Of a stretch of DNA of 64,000 bases, positions 27,483-63,462 are shown in pieces. Numbering within the stretch: the first letter of the stretch is position 1; each line of letters opens with the position of its first letter. Both the position numbers and the translations under genes were made by a program. Source of the DNA: Acholeplasma laidlawii. GTDB lineage: Bacteria; Bacillota_I; Bacilli_A; Acholeplasmatales; Acholeplasmataceae. The stretch covers positions 1 to 64,000 of the forward strand of contig NZ_JADNRS010000024.1 of assembly GCF_015709225.1 (NCBI RefSeq), in the 5' to 3' direction. The notes under the pieces are model-generated. The model saw nothing but the letters and a program-made list of their open reading frames with translations, made no database searches and was not told where the DNA came from.

Positions 27483-28718
27483 TTATTTAAAGTATGGAAT
27501 AATTTCTTTTTTCATATACCCAATAAAGTGCAAACTACCAGTTATAAAAATAACGTCATTTTCTTTTTTGTTTTTAATTAAATTATTTAAAGCTGTTTTA
27601 GGATTCAATTCAAAGTTAAAGGGAAGAAAATCTAGGTTTTTATAACGAGCATCCGGAAAAGCAGTCAAAGTGATGGATGATGCATATTTTTTGAGTTCAT
27701 TTAGCATCACTTCAGGCTCTTTATCAGATAGTGCACTGAATAGTACATGTATATTATACACTTTAAAAATAGATTTAAGTGAAAATATGACTTCTTTCAT
27801 TGCATGAATATTATGCGCACCATCTAAAATCACTCCAGGTAACACTGTTTCTAAGCGACCCGGGTGTTCAGTTTTACTTAAACCTTCATTAATTATTTGA
27901 TCAGGTATATTTGGAAATGAATATTTGATAACTTCTATAACTAGCGCTGCATTCGTATTTTGGAAATCACCTAACAGCGACAGTTCGTAGACTTGATGAT
28001 TGTACTCTATTTTGTGGGGAAGCTCAGATATAGTGCTTACATCACGTTTTTCAATAATTTTAAGTGTTGCATTCACTTTAGAAACATAATCTTTTACTAA
28101 ATCATGTAATCTACTGTCAATGCTCGTAATCAAGTGACCCTTTTCTTTTAAAATTCCAAGTTTATTTAAAGCAATGGATTCTAATGTATTGCCTAATTGG
28201 CGCATATGATCCATACCAACATTGGTAATGACCGAAACATCATAATTTAAAATATTGGTTGCATCTAAGAGTCCACCAATACCAACTTCCATAACGATGA
28301 CATCTACTTTGTTATCTACAAAGTAAATGAGTGACATCAGTGTCATAAGTTCAAAAAATGACAGTGTTAAACCACTATGCTCAAAATAGGTTTTGTTTAG
28401 ATCAAAAACTTTATTAATCGAATCTAACAAGTCACTATCTGATATATCTTTGCCATTGAGTTTAATACGTTCATTAAAGCGTATCAAATAAGGAGATATA
28501 AATGTACCAACACGCATACCAGATTCAACAAGTACTTGAGTAGTCATCATACATACTGACCCCTTACCATTTGTACCAGTTATATGAATCTTTTTCATAT
28601 GGCTTAAATCGAGTTGAAGGAAGCTTAAGGCATCCTTCATATGATCTAGGCTTGTTTTAGGTCTAAACTTTATTTGTGTTTCTATCCAATTTACTGCTTC
28701 ATCAAGTTGATTAAACAT
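27483..28718 (-). CDS. folC: Folylpolyglutamate/dihydrofolate synthase
   Basis: 411 residues of the Mur-ligase superfamily. ATP-binding ITGTNGKGSV (about residues 43-52), VIMEVGIGGLLDATN, GMDHMRQLGNT and C-terminal HPGRLE and DGAHN. It adds glutamate to folates, keeping them in the cell. The start overlaps the valS end by eight bases. The combination valS-folC is common in Firmicutes. Confidence 0.93.
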   Translation of the reverse strand: MFNQLDEAVNWIETQIKFRPKTSLDHMKDALSFLQLDLSHMKKIHITGTNGKGSVCMMTTQVLVESGMRVGTFISPYLIRFNERIKLNGKDISDSDLLDSINKVFDLNKTYFEHSGLTLSFFELMTLMSLIYFVDNKVDVIVMEVGIGGLLDATNILNYDVSVITNVGMDHMRQLGNTLESIALNKLGILKEKGHLITSIDSRLHDLVKDYVSKVNATLKIIEKRDVSTISELPHKIEYNHQVYELSLLGDFQNTNAALVIEVIKYSFPNIPDQIINEGLSKTEHPGRLETVLPGVILDGAHNIHAMKEVIFSLKSIFKVYNIHVLFSALSDKEPEVMLNELKKYASSITLTAFPDARYKNLDFLPFNFELNPKTALNNLIKNKKENDVIFITGSLHFIGYMKKEIIPYFK

Positions 28719-51848: not shown

Positions 51849-54800
51849 TCAACTACTCTTTTCTATTTTTATTAAATCTTTAATTTGCTTTAGTTCTTTA
51901 TTTGGATCTGTATACCAATTAGATTCCAACAATCTATATACGGTCCATCCTCTAGACTCTAGATATTTTTCTTGATGTAATAAATCACGTCTTGCATTTA
52001 AGTCACTTAGACCTACATCAGTTAAGATACCTAATATATAGGCTTTTTGTTTGTCATCTTTAATCGCTAGATTAATTTTATATTTACCAATTCCTACATT
52101 TAAATCTACTTCATAACCTAATCTTTCTAATCGTTTCTTAACATCTTCTGCCATATGTGCTATTAACACATTCCTGGTTTCAATCTCTGTACTATGTAAA
52201 TGATTTAATACCTCTTTAGCAAGATTTTCATTCTCATTTGAAACATAGTAACAGTATCTCATAAAATCTTTTAAGAGTTTAGGACCAGTTGAACTTAAAT
52301 CTTCTACTTTAAATTCTTCAGGATACAAACTAGATATGAAGTAAATCTTTTGTTTAGCACGTGTAATTGCCACATTAAGCCTGTTTTGTCCGCCATCATG
52401 ATTAAGCCACCCAAACCGTCTCATAACTTGTCCTTGGCTGTTTTTAGCATATCCCATAGAAAATATTATGATATCTCTTTCATCACCTTGAACGTTTTCA
52501 ATATTTTTAACAAATAACGATTTATCTTCACCATCATCTTTTCTAAAGAGTTCTCGTTCAAACGCTTTTTGATAAGTTCCTTTTTTAAAGAGCTCTTGAT
52601 CAATTGCATTTTCAATAGCATCTCTTTGAGTACTATTAAATGTAATAACGCCTATAGATTCATTATGTTGTCTTGTTCTTAGAATCTTTTTAATCACTTC
52701 AACAACTTTAGTTGCTTCCTTTTTATTTCTTCTATTTTCAAACATACCATCCTTGACATATACATATTCAATTGGTGGTTCAACCGCCTTTTTTTGATTT
52801 GGTGAAATCATTAACTTAGCATCATAAAAAGCGTGGTTAGAAAACGCGATTAACTCTTCATAAGTCGACCGGTAATGATAATTAAGAATCGCTTCTTTAA
52901 AGCGGTATCTTGCAAGGTCTAATAAACTTTTAGCATCTAGGGAAACTTCTTTAAAGACATCATCTTCATAAAATTCATCAAGTTCATCAGTTCTACCTGT
53001 TCCTAAACTACTTGGTCTAAGTTGTTTAGGGTCTCCTGCAATAACAACTTTTTTAGCTCTATAAATTGAAGGTATACCTTTTTCTACATACATTTGACTT
53101 GCCTCATCGAAGATAACTAAATCAAACATACCGTGTTCTAAAGGTAAAATAGCTGATACCACTTCTGGTGTCATCATCCATAATCTGATGTGACTCTTCA
53201 TTTCTAGTTGGAAGTTTTCAATAAAAGACTTAATACTCGGTTTATTAGATAAATCAAACACTCTTTTAATATCCATAATACGCTTTGTATTATTTAAGTT
53301 AAGTGCATGTTTATAAAGTTCCATCTCAAACGATTCATTGGTAACCAACATTTTTTGATGCATGATTTCTTTAATCTTATCAACCTTCTCTTGATAATTA
53401 TCAAAGATATATAAATGTTTTTGGTGCTCAGACTTAAAGACTTCAATAAATCCTGAATAATACGCTTCAAAGATATAAGTTCTTAATTTATAATTATCAT
53501 CTATACCTCTCACTTTTGGATGTGAATGCATCATCTTTAAGAATGTTTTTTCAAACGGTTTTAGCGTTTGATAGATTGTCATTAATTTATTTAAGCGGTT
53601 CATATTTTCAAAGATATAACTATGTAATCTATCATCAATAAATAATTGATTTAGATATTTCTTCCTGATACTTTTCTTTACACTTAAATAAGTGATTTCA
53701 TCCAGGTAAGTTTTTATAAATGTTTTCTTATGTTTTCTCTTTTTAAAGATACCTGATCTTTGATATGTTGTTTTTAACTGAAGATACTTTTCATGCATTT
53801 GATCAAACATCAATTTTTGACTTCTCGGTATTTTAGTTTCTAATTTTTCTAGTATTGGATACTTTTCTAAGTACCAATCTAAATCCATCATCCGCTTAAG
53901 GTGTGCATCACTATCGAAAGTTTTTTCTAGTGTCTCAATCATTTGGAAACTAGGTTTTTTAAAGACTTCATGAAATATTTTATGTACATCATAAGGGGTT
54001 AAATGTAGTTTAATATCTTTATCCTTAATGTATCTAGAAAAAAGTTCAAATACAGGTTTAATTTCAAATGTGTGCCCGTAGAGTAATTGAAGTGATTTTT
54101 CCATATCATTCAATTGTCTTTTAATTTCTGATTCTAACGCATAGATATCATTATTTAGTGTACGAACTGGTGGTTCCGGTTCTAAGAAATGATTTAATTT
54201 ATAATAAAAATCTTGTTTGTTTTCTGCATCATCGATAAACATTGCGTATTTCGATGCCTTTTTTAGTCTTGAATAAATTACATCTAAGGCAACCTTTTTT
54301 TCAGAGACTACTAATACATTTTCACCCTTTAAAATACTGGATGCGATTAATGAAGTAATGGTTTGACTTTTCCCTGTACCTGGTGGACCCCATATGACTA
54401 TTTTCTTTTCACTGTTTAATAAATCAATGACGCGTTCTTGACTGAAGTTTAAATCGTTTATATAACTGATATTATCCTCATTGATGGGTTCCCCTGATAT
54501 TTCCATTGGTTTAGCTACTTCTTGCTTAAAAAGGTTCGTTTCATCAATTAAACCTTCAAGTAAGTCATTGTATTGTTTCGTAGCTAATATACGTTCCATG
54601 TCTTTTTGAATACTAGATGAGTAGAGTTCAAATCGTGATAAGGTTGCATAAGGTTGTAGTTTAAACTTTGGACGGTTAACCTTTATAAAGTCTTCTTTTA
54701 ATTTATTTTTAAAAGGGATGAACTCTATGTGTTTTGCATCTATTTCAATGGATATACCATGTTTTTCATAAAAAGGGATAACAACCTCATGAAGTACTTT

Positions 54801-55562
54801 TTCATTAAAATCTGTGACTTCAGGGGTAATAAAATCCATTGATGATTTCTCCATTTTAGATGTAATAAGTAATAAGTCTCTATTAAAAATGACATCTCTT
54901 TCACTATCTTTTTTTAGAGTAAAGGTGCGGAGGGTGCGCTCAATTTTTACAGGAAAATATAGTAGTGGTGCTTTAATAGGAAACTTATCCTTACTAAAGA
55001 TACCTTCCACATAAGGGTAAGCAATATAAAGGTTATAACTACCTGTTTCTATTTGGGTCTTATTCACTTCTCTATAGAGTTTTGTTATATGTCTTTCATC
55101 GGCATCACTCTTGTAGTTAAGTTTTAAGTTTTTAATACGATTATTGGTTAAATAATCTTTTAGTTCTAAGTTGTTTTCTATTAAAGTTAGATCGAAGCTA
55201 TGATTTTGATAGATTTGTCCCATATAAAGATTTGAATTTGTTTTAGACATGTTTGTGAGTCTATCTTTATAGTGATGTAGTACTTTACTTGCTTGTTTAG
55301 ATACTTTAACTGATTTAAGATTTGATTGATTAAATGATTTAATAATACTTAAAAATTTCTGAGCATATTTCTTATTAAAATCTTCATCAAGACCAGAAAT
55401 TGCATTAAATTCATTTTGTTTTAGAGGTCTTTTTTGAGCTACTTCAAAAAGAGCAGCATCACTTAATATGATGATTTGCTCTCCGGTTTTATTAAAATGT
55501 GTAAGTCTAAGTTCAGTTCTCAAATCAATTAGTTGTTCTAATAGTTTATTTTTATGCATCAT
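51849..55562 (-). CDS. Large SF1 helicase with C-terminal nuclease-like domain
   Basis: 1237 residues. The start is an ATG behind GGTGGG; a second ATG one codon later is equally possible, and an in-frame GTG lies in the ribosome site. N-terminal 80 residues resemble an HRDC-like helical bundle (FDKKR-type QKRPLKQNEFNAISGL). Walker A WGPPGTGKSQTITSL is at about residue 394; Walker B VIFDEASQM; AGDPKQLRPSS; HYRSTYEELI; VQGDERDII; VAITRAKQKIYF. A large helical insert separates motifs I and II (about 480-800). The C-terminal 110 residues look like a Vsr/MTES_1575-type endonuclease fold (GYEVDLNVGIGKYKINLAIK, ARRDLLHQEKYLESRGW) but key acidic residues are replaced. It could be a repair or anti-invader helicase. 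Confidence 0.87.
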   Translation of the reverse strand: MMHKNKLLEQLIDLRTELRLTHFNKTGEQIIILSDAALFEVAQKRPLKQNEFNAISGLDEDFNKKYAQKFLSIIKSFNQSNLKSVKVSKQASKVLHHYKDRLTNMSKTNSNLYMGQIYQNHSFDLTLIENNLELKDYLTNNRIKNLKLNYKSDADERHITKLYREVNKTQIETGSYNLYIAYPYVEGIFSKDKFPIKAPLLYFPVKIERTLRTFTLKKDSERDVIFNRDLLLITSKMEKSSMDFITPEVTDFNEKVLHEVVIPFYEKHGISIEIDAKHIEFIPFKNKLKEDFIKVNRPKFKLQPYATLSRFELYSSSIQKDMERILATKQYNDLLEGLIDETNLFKQEVAKPMEISGEPINEDNISYINDLNFSQERVIDLLNSEKKIVIWGPPGTGKSQTITSLIASSILKGENVLVVSEKKVALDVIYSRLKKASKYAMFIDDAENKQDFYYKLNHFLEPEPPVRTLNNDIYALESEIKRQLNDMEKSLQLLYGHTFEIKPVFELFSRYIKDKDIKLHLTPYDVHKIFHEVFKKPSFQMIETLEKTFDSDAHLKRMMDLDWYLEKYPILEKLETKIPRSQKLMFDQMHEKYLQLKTTYQRSGIFKKRKHKKTFIKTYLDEITYLSVKKSIRKKYLNQLFIDDRLHSYIFENMNRLNKLMTIYQTLKPFEKTFLKMMHSHPKVRGIDDNYKLRTYIFEAYYSGFIEVFKSEHQKHLYIFDNYQEKVDKIKEIMHQKMLVTNESFEMELYKHALNLNNTKRIMDIKRVFDLSNKPSIKSFIENFQLEMKSHIRLWMMTPEVVSAILPLEHGMFDLVIFDEASQMYVEKGIPSIYRAKKVVIAGDPKQLRPSSLGTGRTDELDEFYEDDVFKEVSLDAKSLLDLARYRFKEAILNYHYRSTYEELIAFSNHAFYDAKLMISPNQKKAVEPPIEYVYVKDGMFENRRNKKEATKVVEVIKKILRTRQHNESIGVITFNSTQRDAIENAIDQELFKKGTYQKAFERELFRKDDGEDKSLFVKNIENVQGDERDIIIFSMGYAKNSQGQVMRRFGWLNHDGGQNRLNVAITRAKQKIYFISSLYPEEFKVEDLSSTGPKLLKDFMRYCYYVSNENENLAKEVLNHLHSTEIETRNVLIAHMAEDVKKRLERLGYEVDLNVGIGKYKINLAIKDDKQKAYILGILTDVGLSDLNARRDLLHQEKYLESRGWTVYRLLESNWYTDPNKELKQIKDLIKIEKSS

Positions 55563-55672
55563 GATTCCCACCTACCTATTGCCATTTTAACATGATATAA
55601 CCAAGATTAAAAACAAATACTTTTGAATAAATACATTTTTATATTATAATAATAAAAAAGGAGGTCAATTCT

Positions 55673-56244: not shown

Positions 56245-59200
56245 TTATTTACGGTAATCTGCTTTTGCCCAAGCCTGAGTTGGTTTAAAGAATCCGTAGT
56301 TTTGATCCCATGTATGTATACCTGGAATCACTGATGTAAGTATAATAGATTTAGATACACCACCAATTTCAACTGTAATTGTATATTGTACTTCAGTTGT
56401 AACTTGTGGCATCGCAATCACACGACCTGTATCAGATAGTAATTCTGAGTCAGAATGGAATGTGATTGTTGCATCTGCAAATTGTGATAACACTAATCTT
56501 TCGATTGCAACGTGTTCCATAAATCTATCAAAATACCAAGTACCATTATAAACCGTATTATTTAGTGTATATGGATCACCTTTACCATCTGTTGTATTGT
56601 GCATAATTACACGGTTATTACTTAGGTTGTTTTCCTCTAGTAAGTTCGCTACTAGTTTTGCAGTTCTCTGAACTGTATCAATGATATCTGCATTTGTATT
56701 AATGTTCATTTCAATTCCAATAGAGTTCAGGTTACCACCGCGTGATGCAATCACACCACGAGCTTGTTGTGTCTTAGCAAACCAGTGTGTACCAATTACA
56801 TATTTACCACCTACGACATCCCAAGTTGGACCTTGGTATGTAAAGTATGAATTATCTAAGATAGCATTATTATCACCACGAGGCGCTTGGACAGTGGATT
56901 TTTGACCATTAAATGTCCAGAAACCATCTGTAGAAATATCAATTATTGGTTTTTCATTATCTGTTACAACAATACCAGTATCATGCCATTGGAAACTAGA
57001 TGCAGTACCATCACCAGCATGCCATCCCACATATTCATCAGGTAAGCTTGCTACGATACCATAATCACCAGTGGTGTAATGAATACCAATACTATTTGCT
57101 GGATTTGCAAAGAATGCACCATGGCTTGCTAGACCACCGTTTAGATTTGCTGTGTCATGAATTAAGACAAATTCTACTGAGTCCATTAAACGGTTAGAGA
57201 ATTTTGTGGGATCCGCAGGATATGTTGTTCTGTCTACTACATAGTCATCAAATAAGTATAAGTTGACACTTTCATATCTTGGGTCAGACCATTCTTGTCC
57301 TGATGTGTAATATGTAATAACGTTTAATCCATTAACCACTGCATTATTTGCGTTACCTAATAAATCAAGTAATTGATCCACTCTATCTTCAGCATCAAGT
57401 GCACGTTGAACTACTACTGTATAAGTGTAGATGAGTTCTGCACCATCAAAGATGTCAATTAAAGTTGTTCCTGGTAATAAAGCTTTAAATGTGTTTGTAC
57501 CTATAAGTTCAACGATACCGTCTTCTTCTGGTACATAGGTGAATGTTTTACCAGCATTATCTTTACCAACACCAACTGCAGTCATTGTGAATTCTTCACC
57601 CACATTGATAAATCCATTAAATCCTGAACTAAATTCTAGAGTTACATCATCCATAGGGTGTACAGTAACTTCCATTGTAGTCATAATTTCACCATTATGG
57701 TTTGTTACAGTAATAACTGCAATACCAGCATTTAATGCTGTTAATGTACCTTCAGGTGAGACACTGATGACTTTTAGATCAGATGATGAAAAGAGTAATA
57801 ATTGATTGAATGCATCTGTTGGTGCAATATCTACAACTAAATCATATGTATCACCTTTAATCATTTCTCCAATTGGATTTGAGATAGTAAGTGATGTCAC
57901 TGGATTTTTTTCCTCAAATTTTGCATATAGTTTAGTTGGTTCAGTGATTTCATAGATTCTATCACCTGTAAATTCCGGATTATTAAACCAACCTTTAAAT
58001 TCATAATTTTCTAAGTATACTTCTGTTGGTAATACTTGAACCTCTGATTGACTTAAGAAGACTGTTTCTTGTTTATCAGCAATTAAATAACTCCAGAAAC
58101 CATATTTAAGGTCACGTAGACTGTAATCTGCTGATTGCCAGTTTGCATTTTCAGTAAATTTACGGCCATCCATGAAACCTCTCACTTCATATGAGAATGC
58201 ATAGCGGTAGTTTGAATTCACTGCATCAAATGCAGCGACTGAATCACGGCTAACGATATTTTGTGCAGAAGCTTTATTTGTTGAAGAACCTACAACTCCT
58301 AAATATTTTGCAACCCATAACCATTTGTCACGGAATCGTACATCAAAGAAGAAAGTATGAATATTAATACTTGAACCAAATGTATCTCTTGGTAGTTCAT
58401 TAATTACATAAGATGTACCACCAAATGTATTGTAATCATTGATCCAGTCATTCACCATAGAATCTCTATCTGCATAGAATGTATTACCACCATTAAATTC
58501 TAGTTCATAAGTAAATGAGTTCACTAATATTTCATAATAAATTTCAATCACTAATGAGCCATCAGCTAAGATAATACCTTCATAGACTTCAAATTCAGTG
58601 AAGTAACCTAATTCAGGATTTGGTAAAACATTTACTTTGCTTCCAACTACACCTGTTTTGAATTCTTCCGAGATATCGTAAGTTAATGTTTCATCATTAA
58701 ATGTATATCTAATGATGACATACTCAGCTTCAGCTTGTAGTATTCTAATGATTCTTCTACCCGCTGTAAATTCATCTTGTATTTTAGATGCTTCTACTGC
58801 TTGACCCATGTTATCGAGGTAGATGTTATCTTCTAAGAGTGTAAGATTACCATCTTCAAAGAATACATAACCAGTTGGATTTTCAAATGTATTTCCTAGA
58901 ATGTCTACATCATAGATTAATGTAGTAGTTGATTCATTTTTTCTTAAGTGAACTGTGTTATGTGTGTTCACAAAGACGTTTTCAATAATATTAAAATCGA
59001 TGTTAAATGAGTTATATGTTGAGGTTGCAATTACTGCTGATTGTGGATAGTTATCTGTTGGATTGTTAAATTCATTACCAATATTTTCAAAAAGGTTTCT
59101 TTGAATATTTATTGTTTGTAAGTTACCAGATGATGCAGAGTATGCTCTAAATAAAATTGCAGTTTCTGCTTGTTTTACATCGTTTTTAAATGTATTATCT

Positions 59201-60570
59201 TCGATATTGTATGTACCGTTATTATAACCACCATCAAAACGAATCGCACCAATTTTAAAATTCGTAAATTCATTAGATCTAATGTTAATTTCTGATGAAG
59301 CCATAGTTCTATCAATAGCAATAATATCAGATTTGATGTTATTAAATGTATTAAATTCAATATGGATATCACCAAAGATGTTTGTACCTGCACCAGCATA
59401 TAATTGGATGATTGCATTTACATTAGTTCTAGCATTTGGAGCATATCCAGTTGCAACAAGGTTGGTATCAAAGACATGATTATGTCTAAATGAGAAGCCT
59501 TTTAATGTACCTGTACTTACAACTTGGAAGTTACCAGTCATGTTAAAGCCTTCAAGTGCTACGTTTTCAATATTCTTAGCAATTGTCACCTTACCAGTTA
59601 ATGTTGTTAGGTGTCCATCAAAACCTAAAAGTGTTAATGGCTTATCAATGTTTAAGTTTTCAGAAAACTCCCCCTTATTGACTTCAATATTATCACCACT
59701 TACTGCTGCTGTAATGGCTTCTTGAATAGTTACATAACCTACTTCATTTAAATAAGCAGCCATTTTAGCTGTAACCGTAATTTCTATAGTTTCAACTATT
59801 TCACCATACGTTGCGGTTATTGTTACAACACCTTCCTGTAGAAGTGTAACAACACCGTCTACTACAGTTGCTACTTCTTCATTTGATGATGTCCAAGTTA
59901 CTTCCTTATTGGTTGCATCTATAGGTAGTATACTAGCAGTTAGTGTAATTGTTGATCCTTCTACACCTTCGCTTGGTCCTTCAATTGTAACTGATTCAAC
60001 ATCAACAACTACACTAGTAATCGTAATTTCATGTGTGTCAGATTTTTCACCTGATATTGCAGTGATTGTGACTACACCAGCTTTGATTAATGTAACCACG
60101 CCATTGTCTACAGTTGCAAATTCCGCATTTGATGTTTCCCAAGTTACTGTTTTATCGGTTGCATTTGCAGGTAATATTGTGGCAGTTAGTGTTATTGTTC
60201 CCCCTACTAAACCAGCATTATCCCCAGTAATCGCAACTGATTGAACTTCTACTACAGGTTCTTCTTTTGCTTCAACTATAATTTTAATAGTGTCACTTAA
60301 GTCTTTACCTACAACAGTTGCAGTAACATCTACTTCCCCTACAGAAAGTGCTGTAACTGTTTGACCTGAAATTGAAATAACACCTTCTACTGACATTGTG
60401 TATTCGACTTCAAGTCCTTCGGTTATTTCATGCTCTAAAGTGTATGAATCACCCACTTTTATGGTTACTTCAGAATCTTTCAAGCTAAAACTTGCTTCAT
60501 CGATTTCTGTACAAGAAACCAAGATAAAAGATAAAATTACCATGAATAATACTAATAATCTTCTTTTCAT
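56245..60570 (-). CDS. Giant surface lipoprotein: Ig-like, beta-helix and peptidoglycan amidase domains
   Basis: 1441 residues from the ATG behind AGGAGG. Lipoprotein signal ends LVSC (Cys20). Domains in order: three BIG2-type Ig-like domains (about 22-265), a right-handed parallel beta-helix with NosD-like repeats (about 275-610), a mixed region with an InlB-B repeat (YLENYEFKGWFNNPEFTGDRIY, about 880-920), two more Ig-like domains (about 925-1090), an Amidase_2/PGRP domain (about 1130-1350), and a short Ig-like tail. Amidase zinc ligands fit His in VLIHDTAN (about 1133), His in VIMHNTTD (about 1321) and Asp in GKGDP (about 1332), as in AmpD. GWHAGDG and SIGIEMN are also typical. It should sit outside the membrane and could cut peptidoglycan of other bacteria; the host lacks a wall. 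Confidence 0.88.
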   Translation of the reverse strand: MKRRLLVLFMVILSFILVSCTEIDEASFSLKDSEVTIKVGDSYTLEHEITEGLEVEYTMSVEGVISISGQTVTALSVGEVDVTATVVGKDLSDTIKIIVEAKEEPVVEVQSVAITGDNAGLVGGTITLTATILPANATDKTVTWETSNAEFATVDNGVVTLIKAGVVTITAISGEKSDTHEITITSVVVDVESVTIEGPSEGVEGSTITLTASILPIDATNKEVTWTSSNEEVATVVDGVVTLLQEGVVTITATYGEIVETIEITVTAKMAAYLNEVGYVTIQEAITAAVSGDNIEVNKGEFSENLNIDKPLTLLGFDGHLTTLTGKVTIAKNIENVALEGFNMTGNFQVVSTGTLKGFSFRHNHVFDTNLVATGYAPNARTNVNAIIQLYAGAGTNIFGDIHIEFNTFNNIKSDIIAIDRTMASSEINIRSNEFTNFKIGAIRFDGGYNNGTYNIEDNTFKNDVKQAETAILFRAYSASSGNLQTINIQRNLFENIGNEFNNPTDNYPQSAVIATSTYNSFNIDFNIIENVFVNTHNTVHLRKNESTTTLIYDVDILGNTFENPTGYVFFEDGNLTLLEDNIYLDNMGQAVEASKIQDEFTAGRRIIRILQAEAEYVIIRYTFNDETLTYDISEEFKTGVVGSKVNVLPNPELGYFTEFEVYEGIILADGSLVIEIYYEILVNSFTYELEFNGGNTFYADRDSMVNDWINDYNTFGGTSYVINELPRDTFGSSINIHTFFFDVRFRDKWLWVAKYLGVVGSSTNKASAQNIVSRDSVAAFDAVNSNYRYAFSYEVRGFMDGRKFTENANWQSADYSLRDLKYGFWSYLIADKQETVFLSQSEVQVLPTEVYLENYEFKGWFNNPEFTGDRIYEITEPTKLYAKFEEKNPVTSLTISNPIGEMIKGDTYDLVVDIAPTDAFNQLLLFSSSDLKVISVSPEGTLTALNAGIAVITVTNHNGEIMTTMEVTVHPMDDVTLEFSSGFNGFINVGEEFTMTAVGVGKDNAGKTFTYVPEEDGIVELIGTNTFKALLPGTTLIDIFDGAELIYTYTVVVQRALDAEDRVDQLLDLLGNANNAVVNGLNVITYYTSGQEWSDPRYESVNLYLFDDYVVDRTTYPADPTKFSNRLMDSVEFVLIHDTANLNGGLASHGAFFANPANSIGIHYTTGDYGIVASLPDEYVGWHAGDGTASSFQWHDTGIVVTDNEKPIIDISTDGFWTFNGQKSTVQAPRGDNNAILDNSYFTYQGPTWDVVGGKYVIGTHWFAKTQQARGVIASRGGNLNSIGIEMNINTNADIIDTVQRTAKLVANLLEENNLSNNRVIMHNTTDGKGDPYTLNNTVYNGTWYFDRFMEHVAIERLVLSQFADATITFHSDSELLSDTGRVIAMPQVTTEVQYTITVEIGGVSKSIILTSVIPGIHTWDQNYGFFKPTQAWAKADYRK

Positions 60571-60799: not shown

Positions 60800-62026
60800 T
60801 TATCTTATAGTTTCACCAGATTCAATGACTTTTCTATCAAATGTGGCAGTTTTGAAAATACGTACGTTTTTACCAATTTTCATATGACCTGGTATAACAG
60901 ATTGTTTTTCAACAACTGTAATACCAGTATGTAAAATATCTGGTTTTTCTTTATTTGGTGTCATATCATCAACAAAACCAATTTCAGTGTGGCCACCAAT
61001 AATAACCTCTTTATCGATGATTGATTGAGTAATTTTAACATCATTACCGATGATTGTGTCATTTAAAATGACACTATCTTTAACAATACTACCCTTACCA
61101 ACACGTACCCCTGGACTTAATACTGAATTGATGACAGTACCCTCGATGATACACCCATTTGATACTAAGCTATCTTGAATGATAGCTTTACTACCTGCTT
61201 TAACCGGTGGAAGTTCCTCACTTTTTGTATATACTTTCCAAGATGGATCATACAAATCAAGTTCAGTATAAGTTTGTGCCATAGCTAAATTGGCGTCTAA
61301 ATAGGCATCTAATGTACCCACATCCATCCAGTAGTCATTAAACTCATGTGCATACACACTTGCTTGAGTTGTTTTAATCAACTTAGGAATTACGTGTTTA
61401 CCAAAATCTAGGTTTTCCGCTATAGTTTCTTCAAGTACTTTCTTAAGCAGTTTAAAGTCAAATAGATAAATACCCATGGATGCTAGATTTGAGTCGGATA
61501 CTTTTGGTTTTTCTTCAAACTCAATAATCTCATTATTTGAGTTAATCGACATAATACCAAATCTAGATACTTCTTCTGGCTTTACTCTTTGAGTTGCAAT
61601 CGTAAGTAGTGCACCTTTTTCCTTATGGGTTTGTATCATTTTTCTATAATCCATCTTATAGATATGATCCCCAGATAAAATAAGTACATACTTTGGATTT
61701 TTTCTCGATAAATATTCTAAGTTTTTTAATACAGCATCCGCTGTACCCATATACCAATTGGTGTGTGGTTGTAAAAGTGTTACGGATGAATCTCTTCTAT
61801 CTAAGTCCCAAGGTTTTCCGCTACCGATGTGTTTATTAAGTGAAAGTGGTAAATATTGAGTTAAAATTGCGATATCATAAATACCTGATTGTACACAATT
61901 CGATAACGTAAAATCAATAATTCTAAATTTTCCTGCAAAAGGCATTGCCGGTTTACTTCTTTTTTCTGATAAGACATCTAATCTGGTACCTTTACCGCCA
62001 GCTAGTATGAGTGCTAGTGTTTCCAT
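60800..62026 (-). CDS. glgC: Glucose-1-phosphate adenylyltransferase (ADP-glucose pyrophosphorylase)
   Basis: 408 residues. N-terminal pyrophosphorylase domain with LAGGKGTRLDVLSEKRSKPAMPF, DFTLSNC and GTADAVLKNLEYL; FEEKP and the sugar-phosphate region later; a left-handed beta-helix C-terminus with hexapeptide-like repeats (SVI, II, VI..). Makes ADP-glucose for GlgA. The start overlaps the glgA stop by one base. Confidence 0.96.
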   Translation of the reverse strand: METLALILAGGKGTRLDVLSEKRSKPAMPFAGKFRIIDFTLSNCVQSGIYDIAILTQYLPLSLNKHIGSGKPWDLDRRDSSVTLLQPHTNWYMGTADAVLKNLEYLSRKNPKYVLILSGDHIYKMDYRKMIQTHKEKGALLTIATQRVKPEEVSRFGIMSINSNNEIIEFEEKPKVSDSNLASMGIYLFDFKLLKKVLEETIAENLDFGKHVIPKLIKTTQASVYAHEFNDYWMDVGTLDAYLDANLAMAQTYTELDLYDPSWKVYTKSEELPPVKAGSKAIIQDSLVSNGCIIEGTVINSVLSPGVRVGKGSIVKDSVILNDTIIGNDVKITQSIIDKEVIIGGHTEIGFVDDMTPNKEKPDILHTGITVVEKQSVIPGHMKIGKNVRIFKTATFDRKVIESGETIR

Positions 62027-63462
62027 TATATTTTTTCCCCTATTATGTTTTTATATAATTTCTCGTATGCTCTGGCCATTTGATTTAAACCAAAATCACT
62101 TTTCATTGCTTGTTTGACTAAAATCTGCCATGTATCTTTATCTTCATTAAATAGATTAACTGCTTCAAATAACTTATCTTTTAAATCATACGCATCATAA
62201 TTCTTAAAACTAAAACCTGTACCTTCTTGTGTGTATTTGTTATAAGGTATTACACTGTCCTTTAATCCACCAGTTTCTCGAACAATAGGTAGTGATCCAT
62301 ACTTCATTGCTATCATTTGACCTAAACCACATGGTTCAAATCTTGAAGGCATCATAAACATGTCACTAGCCGCATAGATAATGTGTGCTATTTTTTCATT
62401 AAATCCTATATAATTACCAACTTTAGTTGGATATTTATAAGTTAAGTATCTAAAATAGTCTTCATATGCTTTATCACCCGACCCCATTAAGATGAACTTA
62501 GCATTACTATATCGGATTACTTCCTCTAAACAGTATTCCATAAGTCCAAGTCCCTTTTGATCAGCAAGTCTTCCTACATAGGCAATCAGTGGTTCGTCTA
62601 GGCTTTTATCTAAACCAAAATGTTCCAGTAAAAACTGCTTATTTAGGTGCTTGCCTGATTTACGGTTTCTTACACCATAAGTTTTGATCAAGTATTTATC
62701 TGTCTCCGGGTTAAAAGTGTTGGCATCATCAATACCATTTAAAATACCTGAAAAATCATTAGATCTATTTTCTAGCGAACCATCTAAGCTAAACCCATAT
62801 TCTCTGGTCATAACTTCTTTGCTATAGCTTGGTGATACTGTATTTATTTTAGTGGCGCGTTCAATACCCGCTTTAAGGTAATTGACACGATCAAAATGAA
62901 TATAAGTGTAATCAAAATCTGTGTTAAAGAATTTTGCTACATCTTTATCAAAATCCCCTTGATATTGTAAATTATGTATCGTAAGTAAGGTATGTATTCT
63001 AAAATAGTTAAAACTTTGATGTCTGTAGTGTTTGTCTAATAGATATGGAATCATAGAGGTTTGCCAGTCATTGATATGCATAATATCCGGATAAAACCCT
63101 ATGATATCTAAACTCTCCAAAATAGCATAACTAAATGCTGCAAATCTTTCAGCATCATCATGGTAACCATATAACCCTTCTCTTTCAAAATAGTGCATAT
63201 TTTGAACAAAAATATAGGTGATACTGTCATATACTAATTTATAGTAATTAACTATAACTTCCCCATGTCCCATATAAATAGTCTTAGTTCCTAGATAAGT
63301 CATTGCTTCATGGTGTTTTTTAATACCTTCATAGAAAGGTGTGATGACAACTATATCATGCCCTAATGATTTGATGGATTTAGGTAGAAAATAAGCCATA
63401 TCAGCTAATCCACCAGTTTTACTAAAAGGGAAAGCCTCTGAACTACAAAACAAAATTTTCAT
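62026..63462 (-). CDS. glgA: Glycogen synthase (ADP-glucose specific)
   Basis: 478 residues of GT5. N-terminal KTGGLADMAYFLPKSI binds ADP-glucose, and HINDWQTSMIPYLL, YVGRLADQKGLGLM and MPSRFEPCGLGQMIAMKYGSLPIVRETGGLKD are family signatures. Elongates alpha-1,4 glucan. First gene of glgA-glgC. The ribosome site sits in a small hairpin just before the ATG. Confidence 0.96.
   Translation of the reverse strand: MKILFCSSEAFPFSKTGGLADMAYFLPKSIKSLGHDIVVITPFYEGIKKHHEAMTYLGTKTIYMGHGEVIVNYYKLVYDSITYIFVQNMHYFEREGLYGYHDDAERFAAFSYAILESLDIIGFYPDIMHINDWQTSMIPYLLDKHYRHQSFNYFRIHTLLTIHNLQYQGDFDKDVAKFFNTDFDYTYIHFDRVNYLKAGIERATKINTVSPSYSKEVMTREYGFSLDGSLENRSNDFSGILNGIDDANTFNPETDKYLIKTYGVRNRKSGKHLNKQFLLEHFGLDKSLDEPLIAYVGRLADQKGLGLMEYCLEEVIRYSNAKFILMGSGDKAYEDYFRYLTYKYPTKVGNYIGFNEKIAHIIYAASDMFMMPSRFEPCGLGQMIAMKYGSLPIVRETGGLKDSVIPYNKYTQEGTGFSFKNYDAYDLKDKLFEAVNLFNEDKDTWQILVKQAMKSDFGLNQMARAYEKLYKNIIGEKI

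Follow-up and report, generated by a model that had tools for sequence, protein, structure and literature searches.

The window, the 64,000-nucleotide stretch of an Acholeplasma genome analysed here, carries the gene for a giant, predicted surface lipoprotein whose modules are laid out in Table 1. The 1441-residue reading frame reported in the first-pass annotation is real, with a GGAGG ribosome-binding site upstream of the ATG at 60570 and a lipobox, LVS-C20, in which Cys20 is the only cysteine of the entire protein. Orthologues are found in A. oculi (78% in the best segment) and in genome G002, presumed to be A. laidlawii, where the protein reaches 2025 residues as compared with 1441 in the window. 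Amidase lipoproteins of this type are not named in the main text of the vesicle proteome papers on A. laidlawii.

Table 1 Position and basis of the features of the lipoprotein gene and of related loci (residue numbers refer to the 1441-residue protein)
Feature	Position	Strand or location	Basis
Giant surface lipoprotein gene, 1441 aa	56245..60570	-	ORF and translation, orthologues
Lipoprotein signal peptide, lipobox LVS-C20	60511..60570	-	Sequence
N-terminal Big_2 (bacterial Ig-like) stalk, residues about 28-268	59767..60489	-	Pfam Big_2
Right-handed parallel beta-helix, residues about 270-613	58732..59763	-	AlphaFold2 model and structure matches
Weak Flg_new/InlB-like (Listeria-Bacteroides) repeat, sub-cutoff	57919..58035	-	Pfam E 0.003
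C-terminal Ig-like region, residues 888-1055	57406..57909	-	Pfam Big_2 stretches; PHROG Ig/tail matches 881-971
Amidase_2 (zinc N-acetylmuramoyl-L-alanine amidase) domain, residues 1131-1333	56572..57180	-	Pfam, alignment, model
Zinc ligand His1138 (predicted)	57157..57159	-	Invariant, 40 sequences, column H83
88-residue insert in amidase domain, residues 1190-1277	56740..57003	-	Present in all D-type members
Catalytic Glu1287 (predicted)	56710..56712	-	Invariant; 45/45 family rows
Zinc ligand His1324 (predicted)	56599..56601	-	Invariant in alignments
Catalytic-site Lys1330 (predicted)	56581..56583	-	45/45 family rows
Third zinc ligand Asp1332 (predicted)	56575..56577	-	D 10/45, C 35/45 family rows
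C-terminal beta-rich module, residues 1361-1441	56248..56490	-	Common to in-cluster paralogues
Half-conserved cre-like operator AAAGCGTTTTCA, downstream of the promoter region and ahead of the start codon	60636..60647	-	Motif scan
folC, the genome's sole Mur-ligase-family gene	27483..28718	-	TIGR01499 314 bits
MurNAc catabolic cluster, roughly 30 kb	C21:113000-143460	Outside window, own genome	Profile and PDB matches

The Ig-like domains described earlier are borne out by a Pfam Big_2 match of 2.3e-32 over four stretches, and the AlphaFold2 model of the proposed beta-helix does match known parallel beta-helices (PfbA, RbmB and AlgE, Z 24-26). Of the InlB-type repeat a Flg_new trace was seen, which at 18.1 bits lies below the cutoff of 27. 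The C-terminal module is regarded as shared on the basis that C-type proteins match A1 positions up to about 363. An assignment as a phage gene from PHROG 'tail' and 'head' matches was rejected, as the matched parts are Ig domains; only Ig repeats figure among the best rows of a phage protein search with the lipoprotein.

The domain search places Amidase_2 (PF01510) well above its curated cutoff (8.8e-11; 42.7 bits as against 26), and an alignment of the domain with 36 phage amidases plus XlyA assigns His1138, His1324 and Asp1332 as the predicted zinc ligands, in agreement with the His, His, Asp site proposed previously. The phage enzymes and the paralogues found within the catabolic cluster described below have Cys at the position of Asp1332, and the D-type amidases form one branch in our tree (support 100/100). 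An 88-residue insert within the domain was missing from the earlier description. The AlphaFold2 model of the domain (pTM 0.78) has a T7-lysozyme/PGRP-like fold, with PlyL (Z 20.9) and XlyA (Z 20.1, 26% identity) as structure matches, along with AmpD (Z 13.2). Purifying selection on the amidase domain is strong, with dN/dS about 0.045 (0.043 in the comparison with A. laidlawii, 0.046 in that with A. oculi) compared with 0.11 and 0.15, respectively, for the whole gene, and, the insert excepted, the domain is the most constrained portion of the lipoprotein.

The closest comparison can be made with XlyA of the B. subtilis prophage PBSX and the endolysins PlyL and PlyG, which share with the window domain not only the fold but also the His-His ligands, the Glu, the Lys and the motifs GWHAGDG, SIGIE and GKxxP. 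The window domain differs from them in its Asp rather than Cys third ligand and in its insert, and whereas these enzymes are small lysins, it is carried on a 1441-residue membrane lipoprotein of a wall-less cell. A scan of viral contigs with the C-type alignment returned 104 relatives in phages or prophages, whose identity over the domain is about 25-40%, while the same scan with the D-type alignment found none; this lends no support to the idea that the lipoprotein as a whole was recently acquired from a phage.

The gene content of the genome, assessed family by family, agrees with the expectation that Acholeplasma makes no peptidoglycan. No match to the transpeptidase PF00905 was found anywhere in the genome, and the search for Mur ligases (PF08245) gave a single match, FolC, so that the folC gene of the window is not a wall gene and the organism is wall-less. 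An autolysin or an enzyme of own-wall recycling was accordingly rejected, as either presumes a cell that makes peptidoglycan. The lack of a wall, the fold and the residues of the zinc site all fit the earlier prediction that the target would be other bacteria or free wall fragments.

Muramic acid is a sugar found specifically in peptidoglycan, and the genome encodes MurQ, the MurNAc-6-P etherase that acts on it (TIGR00274, 368 bits against a cutoff of 302), within a MurNAc catabolic cluster that lies outside the window. The cluster also encodes a predicted glycan-cleaving GHL10 enzyme of the Cwp19/DigH family (1e-106; best PDB match Cwp19, 8.5e-89; as a control, E. coli DigH scores 453 bits with the model used), NamZ (NamZ_N 9.5e-85, NamZ_C 3.7e-42), a NagZ-type GH3 (NF003740, 207.6 against a cutoff of 207), and a BadF-type, putatively MurK-like kinase whose best PDB match is the MurNAc/GlcNAc kinase 8ZO3 (1.2e-18). 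Alongside these are NagB, above its profile cutoff, a PIG-L deacetylase gene near nagB, a PF00144 protein, and the solute-binding proteins and permeases of ABC importers. NagA, the GlcNAc-6-P deacetylase, is absent from this genome, and neither NlpC/P60 endopeptidase nor glucosaminidase companions were found in the nine genomes searched. The cluster genes hold no stop codons and have dN/dS of 0.015-0.12. Judged by these matches, the cluster is a complete-looking gene set for the import and burning of wall sugars.

Individual features of this set are found in a variety of known systems. The muropeptide rescue cluster of B. subtilis, murQ-murR-murP-amiE-nagZ-ybbC(namZ) (PMC5061867), likewise comprises MurQ, a NagZ-type GH3, NamZ and a PF00144 serine hydrolase; unlike B. 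subtilis, Acholeplasma has no wall of its own, its cluster contains ABC importers and a MurK-like kinase with no MurP phosphotransferase seen, its NagZ and NamZ lack signal peptides, and it adds the giant Amidase_2 lipoprotein and the GHL10 enzyme. Scavenging of foreign MurNAc with a MurK-type kinase is known from Tannerella forsythia (PMC5790795, PMC7670621), a walled bacterium that needs MurNAc for its wall, whereas Acholeplasma could only burn it. The GHL10 domain of the cluster's putatively secreted protein is also that of Cwp19 of C. difficile (PMC6016235) and DigH of E. coli (PMC12288456), both of which, in contrast to what is proposed here, act on the cell's own wall.

As the window gene lies outside the cluster, and its own genome lacks the amidase gene of the cluster, the functional link between the two rests on homology, on co-occurrence and on a weak operator motif in common. 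Sister genomes carry a paralogue of the window amidase within the cluster, about 21 kb from murQ (median distance 21.2 kb), and the gene order with a C-type amidase is kept in five other genomes of two families. Across 160 genomes of the order, murQ is present in 37/37 of those bearing the amidase as compared with 2/123 of those free of it (Fisher 2.6e-34, in a test that ignores phylogeny). Ahead of the window gene, the site AAAGCGTTTTCA is the only one of its kind in the window (0.16 expected) and matches in part the full cre consensus, of which the window has no copy; A. laidlawii has the same cre-like site and the paralogue is preceded by a full one. Such sites ahead of amidase genes suggest carbon control.

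We consider it probable that the window lipoprotein is a zinc-dependent N-acetylmuramoyl-L-alanine amidase of a system by which a wall-less host utilises foreign peptidoglycan. Since a predicted wall-cutting surface enzyme accompanies a gene set for wall-sugar import and catabolism, the bacterium probably takes as food the walls of neighbouring bacteria or of their remains. We propose the following mechanism. The amidase would be held away from the cell by its lipid anchor and a long stalk of Ig domains and beta-helix, where it could strip stem peptides off the peptidoglycan of dead cells, shed fragments and perhaps live cells, and the secreted GHL10 enzyme would next cut the denuded glycan. 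The ABC importers, with their lipoprotein binding proteins, may then import the pieces, from which cytosolic NamZ and NagZ would liberate MurNAc and GlcNAc for phosphorylation by the MurK-like kinase. MurQ would convert MurNAc-6-P to GlcNAc-6-P and D-lactate, and the PIG-L deacetylase, conceivably replacing the missing NagA, would together with NagB supply glycolysis. In the freely accessible literature that links Acholeplasma to MurQ, MurNAc, muropeptides, amidases or peptidoglycan hydrolases, we found no description of such a system.

Among the options in the first-pass annotation, nutrient gain is favoured because of the muramic-acid cluster, the near-perfect co-occurrence with murQ, and a labelling study in which Acholeplasma dominated the populations that took up 13C from dead E. 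coli within 2 h, a signal from a different Acholeplasma clade that the study itself attributed to nucleic-acid precursors (PMC4628116). A broader version, in which a large share of the wall-less Acholeplasmatales specialise in eating peptidoglycan and use membrane-tethered amidases to attack living bacteria that have walls, would link wall loss to the wall-eating habit, as wall-less cells are immune to their own amidase; we regard it as unlikely.

It likewise seems unlikely that the amidase serves mainly as a weapon lysing live competitors, with wall sugars as a by-product. The domain's close relatives are indeed phage and prophage lysins, the A. laidlawii genome has four genes of this Amidase_2 lipoprotein kind and the long stalk could extend into a neighbour's wall, but the protein is predicted to be membrane-anchored rather than freely secreted, the family tracks the catabolic cluster and the cre-like sites point to carbon control. 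Non-catalytic binding of peptidoglycan for adhesion to walled bacteria, in the manner of non-amidase PGRPs, would suit the adhesin-like Ig and beta-helix architecture, with the adhesin PfbA among the best beta-helix matches. This 'binding only' option is disfavoured, and seems very improbable, because the three predicted zinc ligands and the catalytic Glu and Lys are all kept, the change from Cys to Asp being to another known ligand type, and because the constraint peaks in the catalytic domain outside its insert.

The descent of the order from walled Bacilli (PMC10868615), together with related amidases in class relatives outside it, might indicate a functionless vestige of an ancestral autolysin and its recycling genes. 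This can scarcely be reconciled with the strength of purifying selection on the amidase gene and on the cluster, the repeated gene copies, the joint absence in several genera, or the lack of any Amidase_2 match in the ten sampled genomes of family f3, which belongs to the order too, 6/10 of these genomes having the transpeptidase. Acholeplasma species dwell on animals and plants and amidases can take away ligands of innate receptors, but a host-associated role such as muropeptide trimming to alter immune sensing is just as hard to credit, as the family is present in larger genomes and absent from the order's smallest (g8, 0.6-0.9 Mb), which by their size look like those of obligate parasites, and the catabolic cluster offers a simpler reason.

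Manure slurry commonly harbours free-living Acholeplasma, which also occur in sediment and waste water. If the nutritional role proposed here is correct, peptidoglycan use would help to explain the published observation that Acholeplasma is the first to assimilate the biomass of dead bacteria, and muramic-acid catabolism would have been retained, apparently under selection, in cells that have no wall to recycle. The system would also provide a simple example of a bacterium constitutionally immune to its own wall-cutting surface enzymes.

The window gene (see table) starts at an ATG at 60570 behind a GGAGG ribosome site, and its product carries an N-terminal signal peptide ending in LVS-C20. 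Together, the frame and lipobox bear out the giant lipoprotein described in the first-pass annotation; Cys20 is the sole cysteine of the entire protein. The Ig-like domains proposed there were recovered by the Pfam search as four Big_2 stretches (2.3e-32) and the Amidase_2 domain with a score above the curated cutoff, while the InlB-type repeat gave a match that remained sub-threshold. The AlphaFold2 model likewise shows the proposed β-helix, right-handed and parallel (pLDDT >90 over much of its length), which matches PfbA, RbmB and AlgE with Z of 24-26; these matches are evidence of fold, not of function. Other genes of the window, listed in the table, include one for a helicase-like protein that resembles parts of the anti-phage ProA and Hhe, far under their cutoffs, and, next to the lipoprotein gene, glycogen synthesis genes in this wall-less bacterium.

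Features of the amidase gene, its genome and the comparison genome
Feature	Location	Remarks
Lipoprotein gene	window 56245-60570 (-)	1441 residues
β-helix	residues 270-613	
Amidase_2 domain	residues 1131-1333	8.8e-11
Insert in amidase	window 56740-57003	88 residues, between HAGD and SIGIE motifs
DUF4011/helicase-like gene	window 51849-55571	1240 aa
glgC- and glgA-type genes	window 60800-63462	adjoin lipoprotein gene
FolC gene	window 27483-28718	
Second Asp-type amidase gene	contig C1:32542-33684	
Muramic-acid catabolic cluster	contig C21:113000-143460 (loci L191, L192)	
murQ	C21:139130-139999	within long same-strand gene run
452-aa protein gene	L192:11241-12596 (C21)	
Lipoprotein gene of A. laidlawii G002	L044:666-6743	2025 aa

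The first-pass annotation also held that the organism is wall-less, and the genome agrees: no penicillin-binding transpeptidase is present in the 1.33 Mb assembly, which is 99.7% complete, and its single Mur-ligase-family match is FolC.

The nearest solved sequence to the amidase is XlyA of B. subtilis (8e-11). Aligning the domain with 36 phage amidases and three close homologues shows no variation at His1138, His1324 or Glu1287 and almost none at Lys1330; at the position of the third putative zinc ligand it has Asp1332, against Cys in the phage enzymes. As far as an alignment can tell, this agrees with the His, His, Asp triad predicted earlier. AmpD-type enzymes also use Asp as the third ligand. 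A model of residues 1056-1441 (pLDDT 73, pTM 0.78) predicts an amidase fold, with Z of 20.9 to PlyL (1.9 Å across 153 residues), 20.1 to XlyA (26% identity) and 13.2 to AmpD. The family falls into a compact Cys type, in which the eight proteins examined have just two cysteines, at the lipobox and the zinc-ligand position, and an insert-bearing Asp type, in which the lipobox cysteine is the only one (five examined). A few Cys-type members (L054, L058) also carry the 88-residue insert, so insert gain and ligand change were separate events.

Comparison with the orthologue in G002, which we take to be A. laidlawii PG-8A, gives a dN/dS of 0.043 for the amidase domain and 0.11 for the gene; against the congeneric Acholeplasma oculi the values are 0.046 and 0.15. 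The enzyme domain, insert excepted, is the most constrained part of the gene, the pattern expected if the enzyme is functional. For the insert by itself dN/dS is 0.14-0.15 with either species, the A. laidlawii value resting on few synonymous changes. One Ig plus β-helix module of the G002 protein is missing from the window copy; the repeats there are 72-85% alike, and either recombination loss or assembly collapse could therefore account for it.

Of 61 relatives, 23 carry Amidase_2 genes (17/44 good genomes), mostly as open frames of ~860-2200 codons, and the proteins whose full sequence was read start with a lipoprotein signal. Within the order, most of the genomes that have them lack a transpeptidase (they occur in 22/54 such genomes, versus 1/7 with one). 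Elsewhere in the class, some genomes of families f9 and f19 have many Amidase_2 proteins (up to ~30 candidates), several of them >2000 aa.

The same wall-less genome carries a complete-looking muramic-acid catabolic cluster, conserved across the order. It comprises a GHL10 protein (1e-106), a PF00144 serine hydrolase, a surface protein, two solute-binding proteins and two permeases; then TPR, Yip1 and DUF5696 proteins and two further permeases; and finally NamZ, a NagZ-type GH3, a BadF-type kinase, MurQ, GNAT, NagB, a 452-aa protein and a PIG-L deacetylase. MurQ, which opens muramic acid 6-phosphate, was detected in all nine genomes tried, this one included. Among solved structures, the kinase has its nearest match in the MurNAc/GlcNAc kinase 8ZO3 (1.2e-18) and the GH3 in 6K5J and YbbD/NagZ. 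The best match of the GHL10 domain is Cwp19 (8.5e-89), a lytic transglycosylase (PMC6016235), and the Pfam model matching the domain gives 453 bits with E. coli DigH, an enzyme that cleaves denuded glycans (PMC12288456). Cluster genes are stop-free, with dN/dS of 0.015-0.12 against A. laidlawii. NagA is absent from this genome, A. laidlawii, A. oculi, G006 and G021, and lies inside the cluster in G010. The PIG-L deacetylase may replace it, because in G000 (the window's genome), G002 and G006 nagB is followed instead by the 452-aa and PIG-L genes. The 452-aa protein has no Pfam or NCBIfam match and only a marginal ROK-kinase-like PDB match. No NlpC/P60 endopeptidase or Glucosaminidase-family enzyme was found in the nine genomes searched.

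Amidases of the family are linked to the cluster by position, in other genomes, and by co-occurrence. In five genomes drawn from two families, A. laidlawii among them, a Cys-type amidase lipoprotein is encoded inside this cluster, directly after the PF00144 gene or, where that is absent, after the GHL10 gene. In genomes with this amidase and murQ on a single contig, G039 left out, the two are ~21 kb (18-25 kb) apart by listed coordinates, a few of them rounded. A. laidlawii has three Asp-type genes besides this one. In the window's genome the in-cluster gene is cleanly absent, with both flanks alignable, and its two Asp-type genes elsewhere are therefore its only amidases. In a set of 160 genomes from the order, amidases occur in 37 and murQ in 39, and all 37 amidase genomes have murQ (Fisher 2.6e-34, a test that ignores phylogeny); members of genera g1, g3, g4 and g15 lack both. 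Cre-like sites, by consensus match only, lie upstream of the gene that follows the place of the in-cluster amidase (TGACAGCGCTTTCA), of the paralogue (TGAAAGCGTTATCA) and, in partial form, of the window gene.

The most likely mechanism is a chain from amidase to glycolysis. The tethered amidase would remove the stem peptides of foreign peptidoglycan, leaving denuded strands for the GHL10 enzyme to cut, and ABC importers would take up oligosaccharides and peptides. MurNAc and GlcNAc would then be released by NamZ and NagZ, neither of which has a signal peptide, and passed by kinase, MurQ, deacetylase and NagB into glycolysis. Independent support for peptidoglycan feeding comes from pig slurry, where 13C of dead E. 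coli reached Acholeplasma RNA within 2 h and Acholeplasma was the predominant labelled population; its authors proposed that the label came from nucleic-acid precursors, and wall enzymes do not enter their discussion (PMC4628116). Our literature search found no account of Acholeplasma breaking down muramic acid or having an amidase system, and the main text of a 2024 study on wall loss in the class mentions neither amidases nor hydrolases.

The initial observation holds. Its interpretation had been left between predation, competition, nutrient gain and binding only; nutrient gain is now favoured, and there is a good probability that the amidase serves nutrition. The parts were already known; new, as a variant, is their occurrence together in a bacterium without a wall.
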